IMG/VR virus record: IMGVR_UViG_3300032271_001949
Coordinates: 1 to 30,158 of that record
Source: a virus
Reading direction: 5' to 3' (one strand)
Length of the DNA stretch: 30,158 nucleotides
A model generated the notes under the pieces. The model saw only the letters and a program-made list of their open reading frames with translations, was not told the DNA's origin and did not search any database. Shown one piece after another: positions 1 through 27,461 of the stretch (the first letter of the stretch is position 1; each line of letters begins with the position of its first letter). Position numbers and translations under genes: made by a program.

Positions 1-2
1 CT

Positions 3-116
3 GAACAAGCGCGGTATCGCTTCAATCGAGAAGGTGCTGAATTCATTCAAGCCCTTCCCGGTCCTGCTGATGTCGCTGTTGGTACTCGACTCATGTTTGA
101 GACCAATTTCTGCTAA
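3..116 (+). CDS. 3' end of an upstream gene (partial), unknown product
   Basis: An open frame enters from the left edge and ends with TAA at 114-116. The 37 visible codons end in FETNFC and include an NREGAEF stretch. The composition looks like an ordinary soluble protein, whereas the overlapping frame 1 over the same bases looks less natural. The stop lies 10 nt before the ATG at 127 of the next gene, which fits the dense same-strand packing here. Function cannot be told from this short piece. From position it is probably a tail or structural gene, but that is inference. Confidence 0.6.
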   Translation, partial: EQARYRFNREGAEFIQALPGPADVAVGTRLMFETNFC

Positions 117-126
117 ACCTCGACCT

Positions 127-705
127 ATGGCGCTAAACCCTTCACAACTATTGCAGCTTGCGCAAGGTGCAGGCTTCAAGGGGCAAGATGCCCAGACAAT
201 GGCTGCAATTGCTATGGCCGAATCAAGCGGCGATCCTGGTGCACATAACAGGAACGCTCGTACTGGCGATGATTCCTATGGCTTAGCACAAATCAACATG
301 CTTGGCTCCATGGGGCCAGCGCGGTTAAAACAGTTTGGCTTGCAGAGTCCTAGCCAACTTCTTGATCCCCAGACAAATTTTAAAGCTGCAAAACAAGTAA
401 AAGATTCTTCAGGTTTTGGCGCATGGTCCACCTACGGCTCTGGTGGATACAAACAGTTTTTACCGCAAGTTCAAAAAGCATCGGCAGGTTTGCCTTCTAC
501 GCCAACTACAACTACACCAACGTCACAACAAAGTTCTCCCGCTAATACCTATAACTTCTATTTGAACGGGACACAACAAGAAGGTATGGATTTTTTGAGC
601 ACTTATCTGCCTAAGTTAACGGGGCAACAAGAAAAACCTAAGGCAATGTTTGACCCGTTATCAATGCTAGCTTCTGCTTTTAATGCTGATTACAGCAAAG
701 AATAA
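127..705 (+). CDS. Lytic transglycosylase (SLT-like) with a phage-specific C-terminal module
   Basis: 192 aa. Residues about 8-100 look like a lysozyme-fold transglycosylase domain: the probable catalytic Glu is E32 in AMAESSG, followed by the SYGLAQIN motif at 50-57. Such enzymes cleave the glycan strand of peptidoglycan. A Thr/Ser/Pro-rich linker follows at about 118-140. The protein ends in a module (YNFYLNG, QEG, DFLSTY, FDPLSMLASAFN) that is repeated at the end of the next gene. The frame is open back to the window edge, but I start at ATG 127 because the upstream gene ends at 116 in another frame. No signal peptide is seen. The stop overlaps the next start (TAATG), so the pair is probably translationally coupled. 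Likely role: tail-associated lysin used at entry. The domain call is firm and the role is inferred. Confidence 0.8.
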   Translation: MALNPSQLLQLAQGAGFKGQDAQTMAAIAMAESSGDPGAHNRNARTGDDSYGLAQINMLGSMGPARLKQFGLQSPSQLLDPQTNFKAAKQVKDSSGFGAWSTYGSGGYKQFLPQVQKASAGLPSTPTTTTPTSQQSSPANTYNFYLNGTQQEGMDFLSTYLPKLTGQQEKPKAMFDPLSMLASAFNADYSKE

Positions 706-1379
706 TGGCAGGACTTTTTGACGTCGGCAGTATTGCGCCCCCTGGTGCAGATTTTGCGAGCACTGGGCCGCATCTTCATGTTGGCGTGCAAGACGCTAGC
801 GGGAAGTACCTTGATCCGCAGTCGGCGCGGTCTTTTCTTTTGTCTCGAATTCTTGTTGGACAGCAGAAGACACCGCTATATTCACAGCAAAGTAGTGGTT
901 GGGTAAGCTCTTCGCCCGTTACTTCACCGTTTGGGCATAGAGAGGCTCCCACCGCTGGCGCATCAACTGAACACATGGGAGTTGACTTTGGTGTGCCACA
1001 AGGTACAAAGCTTGCATGGTCCTCTTTACCTGGAGATGTTTATACTCCCAATAAAGGATTTGGTACAATTCAAACAACAGATCCTCAAGGACACCCTTAC
1101 GCTGTAAAACTTTTGCATACAACCCCAGGGGCAACAAGTTCTGCGCCAGGAGCTACGAGCCAACCATCAGGTGCCCCTTCTACGCCAACAACTTCAGCGG
1201 CTACTGGCAATGTGTACAATTTTTACCTTGGCGGAAAAAAACAAGAAGGTGATACAACTGATTTTTTAAGCAGCTACATGAATCAATTGATGGACGGATC
1301 AAGCAAAAAAGTCCAATCGCAGTTCAATCCAACAGCAATGTTGATGTCTGCGTTTAATACTGCGCCTATGTACGCATAA
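705..1379 (+). CDS. M23/LytM-like peptidase with permuted motif order
   Basis: 224 aa. M23 zinc peptidases cut peptide cross-bridges of peptidoglycan using HxxxD plus a later HxH. Here the late motif comes first: GPHLHVGV, with H23/H25, then G..LDP, at residues 21-38. The early motif comes second: a SPFGHR lead-in at 74-79, HMGVD (H90, D94), then GDV and a LLH at H138. All expected ligands are thus present in circularly permuted order. A Pro/Ser/Thr linker (about 141-170) leads to a C-terminal module (YNFYLGG, QEG, DFLSSY, FNPTAMLMSAFN) shared with the preceding transglycosylase. The start ATG overlaps the upstream stop by one base and its own stop overlaps the next ATG in the same way. It could also be a remnant of tandem M23 domains. 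Probable tail lysin. Confidence 0.75.
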   Translation: MAGLFDVGSIAPPGADFASTGPHLHVGVQDASGKYLDPQSARSFLLSRILVGQQKTPLYSQQSSGWVSSSPVTSPFGHREAPTAGASTEHMGVDFGVPQGTKLAWSSLPGDVYTPNKGFGTIQTTDPQGHPYAVKLLHTTPGATSSAPGATSQPSGAPSTPTTSAATGNVYNFYLGGKKQEGDTTDFLSSYMNQLMDGSSKKVQSQFNPTAMLMSAFNTAPMYA

Positions 1380-2219: not shown

Positions 2220-2990
2220 TTACTGTTTCCTAACGGGGTTCATGACTGCCTCATAAGGAGTACAACCCTGCCTAAGGCGCTTGGAGATAAGTCCTTTGCT
2301 TAAACCTTTTTCAACTTCCCATTCACTATAGGTTTTTGTAACGTCACCAATGGTGATGTATTTGGCGTTTTTGTTGCGGACCGTTTTACCTTTTGTAGGG
2401 TTTTCGGTTGGTGTAACGTGTTTAGACCGATCCCCACCATCATGCTTTTCTGGGCTAAGCGCAATTTCCAAAGGCCAATTTTTGTTTAAACGCTTTTGGA
2501 GGGAAGCTGGTGTGATACCAATTTCTTTTGCCCAATCAGAGATACACATTGTTTTACCATCAAACGTATAAAGGCGTGTCGGCCTACGCCCTCCTCTATT
2601 TTTACAATTTTCTGCATGTGTTATCCATCTACAGTTTTCTTTACAATAATTACCGTTGTTGTCAATACGATCTAAGTCATACCCAGGCCCTGGCCGACCG
2701 CCCATATCTGCATAAAAACCTTCGTACGTTTCCCATTCAGGATCGTAAGTAATCCCACGCCCCCCGTAACGCGCATATCCGTGTTGGTTCGGGCAATTGC
2801 AACGCCGCTTCATGAAATACCAAGAATTGTAACTAGATAGCGCATTTGGAGCTTCAGTTTCTTTTTTATTTTTACAATCTGTGCACAAAATAACTTTGTT
2901 GTTGTTTAAGAAACGCAGCATTTCTGTGCGTTTAACAAAAATTTTTGAGGAACAAAGTTGGCAATGAATTAAAAAATCAGAGGTGTTCAT
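2220..2990 (-). CDS. HNH endonuclease (homing type) with zinc ribbon and C-terminal helix-turn-helix repeats
   Basis: 256 aa. N-terminal CxxC pairs (C10/C13, C36/C39) suggest a zinc ribbon. The central part has the familiar phage HNH pattern: YNSWYFMKRRC, YGGRGI, W...EGF, MGGRPGPGYDLDRIDNNG, then NCRW and a final N-rich stretch. The C-terminus has two similar modules (about 142-183 and 212-253) of the form 'theme sequence, W, G(I/L)(T/S), L.KRL', like NUMOD-type DNA-binding repeats. It lies on the strand opposite its structural-gene neighbours and ends 3 nt from the gene at 2013, as expected for a free-standing homing endonuclease. Target site unknown; it may have inserted between 2216 and 3059. 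Confidence 0.85.
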   Translation of the reverse strand: MNTSDFLIHCQLCSSKIFVKRTEMLRFLNNNKVILCTDCKNKKETEAPNALSSYNSWYFMKRRCNCPNQHGYARYGGRGITYDPEWETYEGFYADMGGRPGPGYDLDRIDNNGNYCKENCRWITHAENCKNRGGRRPTRLYTFDGKTMCISDWAKEIGITPASLQKRLNKNWPLEIALSPEKHDGGDRSKHVTPTENPTKGKTVRNKNAKYITIGDVTKTYSEWEVEKGLSKGLISKRLRQGCTPYEAVMNPVRKQ

Positions 2991-13317: not shown

Positions 13318-14100
13318 GTGTACGCTCCTACCTCTATTACCTCCAAGCAACAAACCTGGTTTAAGAAACAACCAATTGCTTCTGATGATCTTCCCAATGA
13401 TCAAAAAGCTAAGGTTTACCAAGGACGCGCTTACCCCGTCAAAGCATTAATCAAGCAGCAAGATGGGCACACGCAGCTTGATTTAGGTGCTCTTGGCACT
13501 TGGTGGATCTTTGATGCCCATTGGAGCGGCTTGACGCCTGAACCCACGCCCTATGGCGTAGACGGTGAACTGCGGTACCTGCGGAACTTCCCTTACTTCT
13601 GGCAACAAGACAACGGATCAGAAGGCTGGCGCCAATGCCAAACAAGCTCAATTGCCATGTGCTTGAAGTACCTTGGCGTCAAAGGTATTAATGACGACGT
13701 CGATTACCTCCACTATGTCAACAAACATGGCGATACCACGACGCGAGAAGCGCATTTCGGTGCTTTAGCGGACCTTGGCGTTAAGGCGGACTTCAAAACA
13801 AATCTTGACGTAGCTGACGTTAAAAAGCAAATTGACAAAGGAAGGCCTGTTGCGGCAGGTGTGATGCACCACGGAACAACGGATGCCCCCTCCGGTGGAG
13901 GACACTTTATCGTCATCACTGGTTACTCATCTTCCTACTGGCTGGTACAAGATCCGTTTGGTGAGCTTGATCTTGTTGGGGGTCACTGGTTAGCGCAAAA
14001 TCCTACGTCAGGGAAAAACCAGCATTACTCATATGCAAACCTAGATCCTCGGTTTTTTGTTGGGGGAGGGGCTACTGGTTGGGGATGGATTTTTAAATGA
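13318..14100 (+). CDS. C39-like papain-fold peptidase, probable endolysin
   Basis: 260 aa from GTG 13318. The N-terminal part (about 10-70) looks like an SH3-type beta domain (AYPVKALIKQQDGHTQLDLG.LGTWWIFDAHW). The catalytic domain has RQCQTSSIAMCLKYLG with the probable nucleophile C107, GGGHFIVITGY with H196, and VQDPFG with D212. This is the Cys-His-Asp set of C39/papain-like peptidases used by phages to cut peptidoglycan peptides. No signal peptide. The next gene overlaps by 4 nt and encodes a short membrane protein, so the pair looks like endolysin plus holin. An ATG at 13304 opens only a 19-codon frame in another phase. Confidence 0.78.
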   Translation: MYAPTSITSKQQTWFKKQPIASDDLPNDQKAKVYQGRAYPVKALIKQQDGHTQLDLGALGTWWIFDAHWSGLTPEPTPYGVDGELRYLRNFPYFWQQDNGSEGWRQCQTSSIAMCLKYLGVKGINDDVDYLHYVNKHGDTTTREAHFGALADLGVKADFKTNLDVADVKKQIDKGRPVAAGVMHHGTTDAPSGGGHFIVITGYSSSYWLVQDPFGELDLVGGHWLAQNPTSGKNQHYSYANLDPRFFVGGGATGWGWIFK

Positions 14101-14623: not shown

Positions 14624-14671
14624 TAGGAGCGGGGGGACTTGAACCCCCAAGGTCAAAGACCCGCGGATTTT
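14624..14671 (-). pseudogene. 3' half of a class II tRNA, 5' half missing
   Basis: Read on the minus strand this is the end of a tRNA: the 3' strand of an anticodon stem (TCCGC), a variable arm GGTC-TTT-GACC, a T arm GGGGG-TTCAAGT-CCCCC and a 3' acceptor strand CGCTCCT followed by A. The matching 5' acceptor AGGAGCG, D arm and 5' anticodon strand are not found within tRNA distance; the sequence there is the end of the HNH gene, whose TAA overlaps the fragment edge. The long variable arm limits it to Ser, Leu or Tyr type. It may be a tRNA cut by HNH insertion, a split tRNA, or an attachment-site core. Confidence 0.65.
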
Positions 14672-15401
14672 ATTTTAAAACGAAAGATTTACGTTTGTAA
14701 ACTTTTTCAGGATAGTATTTATCTACAAATCTTCGAGCCTGCGTATGTGAAACTTCCAAGATTTTAGCTACTTTTGCGTTCCACCCAAATTGAGTTAAGT
14801 CAATATCGGCTATTTTAGCCAATCTTTTGTTAATTTCCTCGGGTTTTAACGCATTGTAATCATAAGGCGCTTTTAAGTTTTTGTTTTTTAAAATTTTTTC
14901 AGCTTTCTTTTTTTTGTCAGACCTATTGCGCCCCCTGTAAGTATCTGTTTGAGCGTGACAATTAGGGCACAAAATTTGAAGATTTTCAAATCTATTGTCT
15001 TCATGATTTCCGTTAATGTGGTCAAGCTCTAGTGGTGCCATTTTGCCGTTCCATTGTGTTATGCCGCAACGCTCGCATTGCGCTTCTTTTAGCCCTTCTC
15101 GGATAAGGCGTCTTCTTAAACTATTAGAACCCATGTGCGGTCCAGTCCTTAACGTATTGTCTATTAAATATTCTGAAATGTCTCTGCGGGGACCAAAGTT
15201 TTGACCTTTGTTCCAGCCTTGCCCTTTCCAGTGAGAAGTATCTAACTGTAACTCCGCAATATGCCTTTTAACACTCCCATAATTTGCACCTGCGGGTTTT
15301 AATCCAAGATATTTAAGGGCGCCTGCACACGAAATAGATACAGAAACCGCTCTAGTGAGTTGTTCTTTAGTATATTTTTTGTGGACAGTATTTTTTTTCA
15401 T
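14670..15401 (-). CDS. HNH endonuclease, free-standing, in tRNA cluster
   Basis: 243 aa. Complete HNH core with zinc-binding cysteines: CERCG (C109/C112), LELDHINGN with D127-H128, N140 in FENLQILCPNCH, and C145/C148-H149. N-terminal helix-turn-helix-like stretch (TKEQLTRAVSVSISCAGALKYLGL) and C-terminal basic HTH (WNAKVAKILEVSHTQARRFV) give DNA binding. A minus-strand TATAAT lies 24 nt upstream. The coding sequence runs directly into the tRNA 3' fragment at 14624-14671, which points to insertion into a tRNA gene. It is not inside a recognisable group I intron. Confidence 0.88.
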   Translation of the reverse strand: MKKNTVHKKYTKEQLTRAVSVSISCAGALKYLGLKPAGANYGSVKRHIAELQLDTSHWKGQGWNKGQNFGPRRDISEYLIDNTLRTGPHMGSNSLRRRLIREGLKEAQCERCGITQWNGKMAPLELDHINGNHEDNRFENLQILCPNCHAQTDTYRGRNRSDKKKKAEKILKNKNLKAPYDYNALKPEEINKRLAKIADIDLTQFGWNAKVAKILEVSHTQARRFVDKYYPEKVYKRKSFVLK

Positions 15402-15431: not shown

Positions 15432-15441
15432 GCCTTTTCTA

Positions 15442-15523
15442 TGCCCCCTGCCGGGGTCGAACCGGCACGCTTTTCAGCAAGAATTTTTAAGATTCTTGTG
15501 GCTACCTCTTACACCAAGGGGGC
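15442..15523 (-). tRNA. tRNA-Leu (anticodon TAA)
   Basis: 82 nt on the minus strand including the discriminator A. The acceptor stem GCCCCCT/AGGGGGC is perfect, the anticodon arm AGAAT-CTTAAAA-ATTCT gives TAA (codon TTA), a long variable arm follows, and the T arm is GCCGG-TTCGACC-CCGGC. No intron is present, although the cyanobacterial host gene of this type often carries a group I intron. CCA is not encoded. Confidence 0.92.
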
Positions 15524-15593
15524 TTGCGGTACAAGCATAGCGCACAGTACAGGTATCTGCACCGTAGTTTTGGGTAAGGATTCATGTACCGCC

Positions 15594-16004
15594 ATGTTTC
15601 ACTGCGAAAACGATTTACTCGCCAACCTGATTGTTTTAAGCCCAAAGGTAGCAAGAAAACGATTTCGAGAAAGTATTTTTGAGGATTGGTGTTGGCAATG
15701 CGCTTATTGTGATAAACATCTAAACGATTGCACGGCAACTATTGATCACATTATTCCTAAGCACAAAGGCGGTCACAACACAAGAAACAACCTCGCAGCT
15801 TCTTGCACTTCTTGCAATAGGGCCAAAGGTTCACAACATGTTTTTGAGTATATGAGCCCCTCTCATCAACATTATTCAGAGCAAAGGGTTGGTAAACTTA
15901 AGAAGTGGATGGAGCAAAAACCTTGCTCTTTAAAAATAGTACCAACAGCGCAAGCTATCCCTTACATTTGTCATGATGCAACCCTCGGCTGGATCGCGAC
16001 TTGA
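15594..16004 (+). CDS. HNH endonuclease domain protein
   Basis: 136 aa from ATG 15594. The frame is open back to 15441, but that part overlaps tRNA-Leu and reads as non-protein, so I reject the longer start. The HNH core: CAYC (C36/C39), TIDHIIPKHKGG with D51-H52, N66, and ASCTSCNRAKG (C71/C74, N75). This is the compact HNH form seen both in homing nucleases and in phage packaging or repair-associated nucleases. A basic region (KVARKRFRESIFEDW) precedes it. The 3' end overlaps the next gene by 32 nt. Unlike the other HNH genes here it runs in the same direction as its structural neighbours. Confidence 0.78.
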   Translation: MFHCENDLLANLIVLSPKVARKRFRESIFEDWCWQCAYCDKHLNDCTATIDHIIPKHKGGHNTRNNLAASCTSCNRAKGSQHVFEYMSPSHQHYSEQRVGKLKKWMEQKPCSLKIVPTAQAIPYICHDATLGWIAT

Positions 16005-16441: not shown

Positions 16442-16912
16442 ATGGCAAAACCTGCAATTGACAAATCAACTCCTTGCTACTGCCACTTAACGCAGTGTTT
16501 GCGTGACTCGGTTCACGTTTATCATCAAACTCAACTTGTCCATTGGAATTTGATGGGTGGAAAGTTTTATTCCATTCACAAATTGACAGAGATGATCTAT
16601 GAGGAAATGCAAGAAGGTAATGATGTTATTGCCGAGCATATTCGCTCTTTGGACATTGCCACACCAAAAACCGTCGAGGATTTGGTGTACACAACCTTGC
16701 CAGCAATCCCTTTGGAAAGTTGCTTTAACCAAGAGCCCATTATTCTGCAACTGGCAACCAACCACAATTTGCTCGCCAAAAAATTTGAAGAGTTAATCAA
16801 AATGAGCGAATCAATCGGCGATCAACTTACTCTCGACCTTGGAGTTGAGCGTGGTCGCGTGCATAAGAAGTTTCAATGGTTGCTTAAGAGTACACTAGAT
16901 TATAAGAAATAA
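16442..16912 (+). CDS. dps: Dps-type ferritin (DNA protection / iron storage)
   Basis: 156 aa, the usual Dps length. The signature stretch QLVHWNLMGGKFYSIHKL and YEEMQEGNDVIAEHIRSL matches the family. The four ferroxidase residues sit at H34, H46, D61 and E65: the gaps of 12, 15 and 4 equal those of the Listeria Dps-like ferritin site (His31, His43, Asp58, Glu62). Family members form 12-subunit shells that oxidise Fe(II) with peroxide and protect DNA. The C-terminal helix (LAKKFEELIKMSESIGDQLTLDLGVERGR) is also as expected. No long basic N-terminal DNA-binding tail, so iron and peroxide detoxification is more likely than DNA condensation. Co-directional with a Cys/His protein upstream and virion-like genes downstream. 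Confidence 0.82.
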   Translation: MAKPAIDKSTPCYCHLTQCLRDSVHVYHQTQLVHWNLMGGKFYSIHKLTEMIYEEMQEGNDVIAEHIRSLDIATPKTVEDLVYTTLPAIPLESCFNQEPIILQLATNHNLLAKKFEELIKMSESIGDQLTLDLGVERGRVHKKFQWLLKSTLDYKK

Positions 16913-26489: not shown

Positions 26490-27461
26490 GTGGGTTTACT
26501 ACAATCACTAGGCGGTCTCGTCGGCTTACCTACAAATCCCGTAAGTGCAGCAGTAGGCCTGGCCAGTTATTTAGCCTTCCCCCCTGCAGCTGGCGCTAGC
26601 GAAGAAGCAGAACTGGCCGGGTACAAAAAACTCCTGTCAGACCCCTATTACGGCAAAAAAAGCATTCGCTGGAGTCCAGCCACACCCCAAAATCCACGAG
26701 GAACCGCAGTAGATCCCATGCCAACTTCGCAGCAGGCGACAAGCCCTCGCAATCTTGTCCGTAGTACCAGCCCTGCTACCCAATTTTCTACTGCCGGCGC
26801 CGGACCTAATGGCCCGAACCCCAACGCCATTGTTCAAGGTCAAGACGGTATTGGCGAAGAGTACCGTCAACGTATGTCCGCGTACAACAACCAAGCAATC
26901 CTTGCTCGCCAGTCCCTGCAAGGCTATGATCCCTCCAAAGGCCCCCTCCCAGGTGCCGCCCAGGAAGCCCAAGACCAAGGCATGGACATTTGGAAGGGTG
27001 TGTACGCAGGCACCAAAATGGCCCAACCAGGAGGCGCTGTAGGCACATTCAACCCCCTGATGCAGGCTCGTGGCGACGTACCTTCAATGGAAGAATTGTG
27101 GAAAGGAATCGGCGGCGGTGCACCTACAGCAGGACCCAGCGACGAAGCAATTAAAGCGGCCATGGCACAAGGCCAGTACCATGCTGCCGCTGGTAGCCCC
27201 AACCCTTTTGGCCAACCTGCTAACACGCTGCCAGCACCTCCTCAGCAGCAAGGAGCAGCAGTTAGCGGCGCCTTTGCACCGGCCCAAGCCGAAGCAGCAA
27301 AGAAAACTGCTGGAGCAGAAGGCATGCCACAGCTGCCTAAAACCCCTGAATCACAGACTCCCGGACAAGATTTTTTGAGCCGCACCATGAGCAGCCCATG
27401 GGGCGACGCCTTGAAAAATACTCTTGGTGGCATGCTTATTAACAGAATTCAGGGGCTGTAG
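26490..27461 (+). CDS. Large polar virion-type protein
   Basis: 323 aa, GTG start. N-terminus with Gly/Ala/Leu hydrophobic stretches (LGGLVGLPTNPVSAAVGLASYLAF), then long Pro/Gln/Ala/Gly-rich regions with Tyr-containing spots (EEYRQRMSAYNNQAILARQSLQGYD), and a Gly/Leu C-terminus (LGGMLINRIQGL). No enzymatic motif. It resembles the low-complexity virion or internal head proteins found in this part of cyanophage genomes. The upstream ATAAGTTCAAAA is shared with the region before 13318. The next gene starts 5 nt after its stop. Confidence 0.6.
   Translation: MGLLQSLGGLVGLPTNPVSAAVGLASYLAFPPAAGASEEAELAGYKKLLSDPYYGKKSIRWSPATPQNPRGTAVDPMPTSQQATSPRNLVRSTSPATQFSTAGAGPNGPNPNAIVQGQDGIGEEYRQRMSAYNNQAILARQSLQGYDPSKGPLPGAAQEAQDQGMDIWKGVYAGTKMAQPGGAVGTFNPLMQARGDVPSMEELWKGIGGGAPTAGPSDEAIKAAMAQGQYHAAAGSPNPFGQPANTLPAPPQQQGAAVSGAFAPAQAEAAKKTAGAEGMPQLPKTPESQTPGQDFLSRTMSSPWGDALKNTLGGMLINRIQGL

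Follow-up and report, generated by a model that had tools for sequence, protein, structure and literature searches.

The peptidase gene described here (Table 1) encodes a protein in which the two halves of an M23 domain occur in swapped order, and a natural circular permutation of the M23 domain is strongly supported as the explanation. This reading had been put forward from the order of the motifs in the window (here and below, the whole stretch of DNA analysed, a 30,158-base virus record), and it is supported by the swapped homologous halves, the conserved ligands and the single predicted domain. The product is probably a permuted M23 zinc endopeptidase that is encoded beside a glycan-cutting enzyme and makes up, together with it, a virion-borne pair that pierces the cell wall.

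Table 1. Position of the permuted peptidase gene, its parts and its upstream partner in the window.
Feature	Position	Strand	Remarks
Upstream partner, SLT_3 lysozyme-like enzyme	1..705, 5' end open	+	Pfam SLT_3 E 8.6e-19, residues 52-144
Permuted M23-like peptidase gene	705..1379	+	224 aa product
Residues 13-39, C-terminal part of an ordinary M23 domain, here first (TGPHLHVGV..G.YLDP)	741..821	+	
Residues 40-70, linker from old C terminus to old N terminus	822..914	+	gap between matched pieces
Residues 71-140, N-terminal part of an ordinary M23 domain (PVTSPFGHRE..HMGVDF..KLLH)	915..1124	+	
Peptidase C-terminal tail, residues 159-224, common to the upstream protein	1179..1376	+	two short predicted helices, low confidence

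Order of the catalytic motifs

In ordinary M23 enzymes, according to a review of the family, the H(x)nD motif comes first, another catalytic histidine lies about 30 residues before the HxH motif, and HxH comes last (PMC9662197). The window protein departs from this order. In it, H23 and H25 (codons 771-773 and 777-779) are located in STGPHLH and are followed by H90 and D94 (972-974 and 984-986) in TEHMGVDF and by H138 (1116-1118) in KLLH, so that the HxH motif stands ahead of HxxxD and LLH, at exactly the residues named in the original prediction. The third histidine, the counterpart of LytM H260, is H138, which sits after, not before, HxH. The start of the gene overlaps the stop of the upstream gene by one base (TAATG), and this start codon is supported by relatives that likewise begin with MAGL or MASL.

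With the M23 family (PF01551; for example, LytM, lysostaphin, MepM and ShyA) the permuted proteins share HxxxD and the extra catalytic histidine, as well as the FG.R..P......H.G.D and TG.HLH..V blocks, each half aligning separately to the M23 profile, and the window protein also has HxH. They differ from M23 in that the blocks are swapped, in scoring below the Pfam cut-off and, in most of them, in having HxD in place of HxH. Given that these proteins are homologous to M23 but depart from its motif order and fall short of the Pfam cut-off, we file them as circularly permuted relatives rather than as ordinary M23.

Relatives and conservation of the ligands

By eye, the permuted order is present in 38 of the 39 loci of the first set of relatives, the exception (L045) being ordinary. 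In the second search, 480 of 523 stretches proved to be relatives, and the matches listed (80 of 480) include 73 new loci, all of which are permuted, 67 by pattern and six with variant motifs that can be seen near their starts. Twelve of the 38 permuted loci were left out of the 27-row family alignment, namely, 11 near-copies (L013, L020, L022, L024, L025, L026, L028, L029, L037, L039 and L043) and L016, which is cut at a contig end. The window, Synechococcus phage S-EIV1, Acinetobacter phage Ab105-2phi, the 26 other rows of this alignment and the 73 loci amount to 102 entries, which were reduced to 78 distinct proteins by dropping identical sequences, many of the 78 still being close copies. 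Three other phages were considered as possible carriers of the permuted form, the cyanophages S-PM2 and Sf-CH11 and Leptolyngbya phage Lbo240-yong1, and all have the ordinary order.

H23, H90 and D94 are present in all 78 distinct proteins (window included), and H138, within LLH, in 77, the exception (L140) being cut at a contig end. Residue 25, the third zinc-ligand position, is Asp in 75 of the 78 proteins and His in three (window, L126 and L127). In a quick tree of 63 domains, these three form one clade (SH-aLRT 100), which is placed, with moderate support (81), within the Asp-bearing cyanophage-type group; the root of this tree has a very long branch. A local accident is ruled out by the swapped order being kept in 78 distinct proteins, and an assembly artefact by the same architecture in these proteins.

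Homology of the two halves to M23

A profile of ordinary M23 was built from 23 domains, of which 16 came from IMG/VR contigs, two from the cyanophages S-PM2 and Sf-CH11 and five from PDB chains. Residues 72-117 of the window protein match positions 2-47 of this model with 24.9 bits and residues 13-37 match positions 90-113 with 8.8 bits; 78 shuffled controls reach at most 1.5 bits per piece and at most 2.5 bits per whole protein. Both pieces were found in 57 of the 78 distinct proteins, swapped in all 57 and in the normal order in none, and a single piece in the other 21. The larger piece scores 12.3-31.7 bits across the permuted proteins. The HxH piece is weak by single-sequence scoring, with at least 5 bits in only 30 of the 78, and falls below 0 bits in eight of the 57; the remaining 49, with both pieces above 0, are all swapped.

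Furthermore, when the permuted family was aligned with M23 by hhalign, residues 71-110 align to positions 1-39 (P 1.9e-12) and residues 17-39 to positions 93-114 (P 7.3e-7), these P-values being only indicative with one target; each of the two halves matches M23 separately. Against a tandem copy of the M23 profile, a single alignment runs across the junction, with a score of 98.0 vs 72.6 for the better half. Among solved structures, the family profile finds M23 chains such as 3slu (E 1.2e-4 for the whole sequence), in which positions 73-140 of the profile align to residues 225-294 of the chain; a second block, profile 16-44 to chain 316-339, is in swapped order and is not significant alone. 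Pfam M23 (PF01551) gives the window protein 14.8 bits, vs a gathering cut-off of 28.7, and in the 27-row alignment the window alone matches this model at E <= 1, so that a conserved group with swapped order is missed by the Pfam M23 model (0 of 27 members over the cut-off).

Predicted structure

For the full protein, AlphaFold2 (27 sequences) yields a model that is mostly confident over residues 1-150 and of low confidence in the tail. For residues 1-150 (63 sequences), the mean pLDDT is 91.7 and the pTM 0.87, and this confidence places both halves in one domain; the structure prediction suggested with the original claim returned, for these residues, one compact, high-confidence domain. Under the proposed rearrangement, the C-terminal HxH strand would have moved to the N terminus, a linker of about 30 residues would join the old termini, and the new termini would lie between the GQ.IG/STGPHLH strand and that of the catalytic His, which reads KLLH in this protein and YxHL in the ordinary enzymes. 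The chain would presumably refold into one M23-like active site.

Foldseek, which like VIA-align follows chain order, gave no match to the PDB at E <= 0.001 for either model. VIA-align superimposes the model on the M23 peptidase 2gu1 (Z 4.0, rmsd 3.3, 84 aligned, model 44-148 to chain 200-291), lysostaphin 4lxc (Z 3.1, rmsd 3.4, 83 aligned) and Csd3 4rny (Z 2.9, rmsd 4.8, 83 aligned), with Z scores that are no better than those for unrelated chains (4.3). All three M23 matches lie within residues 42-149 and leave the N-terminal block unused, which would be a weak indication, from models, of what a permutation predicts. The only significant structural match to the full-length model is the BFVD model A0A510E7V3_3 (E 2.1e-7, 29% identity, 179 columns), a large viral protein that is perhaps another permuted copy.

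The upstream gene and the shared tail

The likely start of the upstream partner, by eye, is the ATG at 127. The C-terminal tail of the peptidase recurs in this protein (open-frame residues 175-229, nt 523-687; tail match i-E 2e-13), the last ~60 residues of which resemble those of the peptidase, with 49% over peptidase residues 145-219. Upstream ORFs were examined in 76 loci. In 48 of these the ORF is longer than 160 aa, and 46 of the 48 carry the same C-terminal tail of about 60 aa, whereas in the remaining 28 loci the ORF directly upstream is smaller (138-154 aa), looks alike from locus to locus and is apparently non-muralytic; the one from L007 resembles a helix-hairpin-helix protein (E 7.2e-5, below the Pfam cut-off).

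Among the 48 larger partners, 27 resemble the lysozyme of the window. In a Pfam scan of eight partners, SLT transglycosylases account for five and SLT_3 for one (L126); L042 and L193 have no Pfam match and, in PHROGs, match families named endolysin. In the partners scanned, the larger upstream gene looks like a glycan cutter, judging from these sequence matches. The tail is common to two non-homologous, adjacent wall enzymes and stays while the type of the glycan-cutting partner changes.

Copies within tape-measure proteins and a possible common origin

Acinetobacter phage Ab105-2phi and Moraxella phage Mcat19 have the same permuted domain inside their tape-measure proteins, with HLD, HxGxD and LLH, whereas the window has HLH. 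These copies have a shorter linker and, in contrast to the separate protein of the window, are part of a long chain, of 1,462 aa in Mcat19; the Ab105-2phi ORF ends soon after the domain. In eight viral contigs close to Ab105-2phi, translated from among the 80 listed of 142 relatives found, the domain belongs to frames of 1,433-1,718 residues; a few of the 80 also served in alignments. The tape-measure-type domains are 30-33% identical to the domain of the window.

A first scan of genome contigs, with the family alignment A3, found no relatives, and a second one (A5) found 269. Among the matches listed (80 of 269), the domain is permuted in eight Acinetobacter genomes, and an ordinary continuous M23 is present in the remaining 72 loci, most of which belong to Lachnospiraceae according to their titles. 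As a control, 72 of 83 loci examined show a single continuous match to ordinary M23 and 11 are permuted, L314 and L315, with M23 pieces swapped, being counted among the latter.

The similar cut point, the shared HxD and the wording of the motifs suggest that the stand-alone and tape-measure copies share one origin, as far as can be told from the sequences. In two domains of the tape-measure type (L234 and L314), the two pieces have about seven positions of the M23 model in common, at the new ends of the domain; such an overlap would fit tandem duplication followed by trimming, and over-extension of the alignment could give the same. It is conceivable, though we would put the chance somewhat below even, that one M23 permutation in an ancestor of tailed phages gave rise to a distinct subfamily, most members of which would have an H/D/D zinc site, and that this subfamily serves two virion machines: in S-EIV1-like cyanophages, a stand-alone enzyme that a shared docking tail combines with exchangeable glycan cutters, and in phages of Moraxellaceae, an internal tape-measure domain. 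If this is the case, termini moved next to the catalytic strand may let the domain join or dock on the tail and switch on at ejection.

Proposed function

By the mechanism that we propose for the permuted peptidase, the zinc ligands would be H90, D94 and residue 25, which is a His in this protein and an Asp in most relatives, and H23 together with H138 would activate water. The peptidase would cut the peptide cross-links of peptidoglycan and the enzyme encoded upstream would cut glycan alongside it, with the shared C-terminal tail docking both on the same part of the virion, so that the two chemistries could open the host wall at DNA entry. The several tail-fibre genes in the window, the adjacent lysozyme-like gene and the tape-measure fusions elsewhere provide the context from which we infer a tail lysin.

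The PHROG matches of the peptidase belong to families variously named endolysin, metallo-endopeptidase, peptidase and tape measure. The first of these names and the lysozyme-like neighbour would also suit an enzyme that acts in lysis from within rather than at entry, but such an endolysin role is unlikely considering the tail-fibre genes, the relatives built into tape-measure proteins, the tail on both enzymes, which looks like a docking element, and the presence in the window of a separate gene (13318-14100) that matches an endolysin family.

Somewhat less probable still is that the permuted fold is real and the protein is no longer a peptidase, having become a binding or structural M23-like domain, as in EnvC and NlpD. 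Degenerate M23 proteins with binding roles are known, according to the review (PMC9662197), and the replacement of the third ligand His by Asp in nearly all of the distinct proteins points in the same direction. Against this, divergent lineages have retained the remaining ligand and catalytic positions, a pattern that would be unexpected after loss of catalysis, and the clade of the window itself has the full HxH. Aspartate, moreover, is able to bind zinc.

The alternative originally offered to a permutation was a remnant of two domains. The stop-to-stop frames of the short relatives extend at most 49 residues upstream of the matched start, and no ordinary M23 domain was detected there ahead of the permuted one. 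Nor was a full-length ordinary M23 detected in the ORFs of the window and of 75 family loci, with flanks of up to 5-6 kb; the loci of S-EIV1 and Ab105-2phi stood outside this check. The M23 profile gives two swapped pieces in each of six tape-measure proteins, one of which is that of Mcat19. The HxH piece scores only 0-1 bits in five of them, and the only further M23 piece detected in these six is one of -3.7 bits in Mcat19. Hence, the arrangement that had been named as counter-evidence, a normal M23 domain that precedes the permuted one in a single longer protein, was encountered neither in the frames nor in the tape-measure proteins, and a broken or fused pair of M23 domains was rejected as there is no full-length ordinary M23 in the flanks examined. 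The remnant itself is made unlikely by the ligands, which are conserved in 78 distinct proteins. Taken by itself, each half matches no more than a portion of M23, and many relatives have a weak HxH piece. Even so, it is extremely improbable that the motifs were left over from two broken M23 domains, or reflect an artefact of frame or assembly, and do not form one domain, when the same architecture recurs on many contigs with ligands conserved in both halves, one domain is confidently predicted and the flanks lack an ordinary copy.

Comparison with known systems

A close relative among named phage proteins is AHV82231 of Synechococcus phage S-EIV1, which is permuted, has the MAGL start and is 46-49% identical over residues 1-146; it differs from the window protein in having HLD, not HLH, and, by eye, in its tail. 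AHV82231 is annotated plainly as 'peptidase M23 family' and the gene before it as 'hypothetical protein'.

Precedents for permutation come from other folds. The accessible text of PMC6403190 describes circularly permuted NlpC/P60 enzymes (YaeF/G6R, LRAT-like) in a superfamily that includes peptidoglycan peptidases, but these have a cysteine-peptidase fold unrelated to M23. Among the barrel-sandwich (HABAS) folds, topologies are related by circular permutation and an M23 protein is included in the structural alignment, but this comparison, in the part of the source that is accessible, deals with distant folds and with no permuted M23 enzyme that retains its active-site residues (PMC11515920). 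Among the papers listed in the literature searches, we found no report of a permuted M23: the string 'permut' is absent from the main text of the M23 review PMC9662197, and the accessible portions of PMC8790148, PMC5332604, PMC11594527, PMC12419801 and PMC10194240 report none.

M23 is a large and well-studied family, the definition of which assumes one order of motifs. The permuted group provides a natural test of a metalloenzyme active site surviving permutation and of Asp for His at a zinc-ligand position, and points to a pair of peptidoglycan enzymes that apparently have a docking tail in common and of which one, the glycan cutter, is exchanged.

Other genes of the window

The product of 26490-27461 resembles, by eye, an S-EIV1 protein (L001 6251-7114; MGQPGGAIGSVNPLMQ vs MAQPGGAVGTFNPLMQ), and with this likeness the record looks S-EIV1-like beyond the peptidase. 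For the product of 13318-14100, the PHROG match is to phrog_10051 (E 3.8e-48), a family named endolysin; by eye it has the look of a C39-type peptidase, and it is a candidate for a separate lysis enzyme. The product of 16442-16912 is Dps/ferritin-like by eye, and its PHROG match is to phrog_3636 (E 3.1e-17), a family named DNA binding protein. Three further ORFs, at 2220-2990 (-), 14670-15401 (-) and 15441-16004 (+), have, by eye, the look of HNH-type homing endonucleases.
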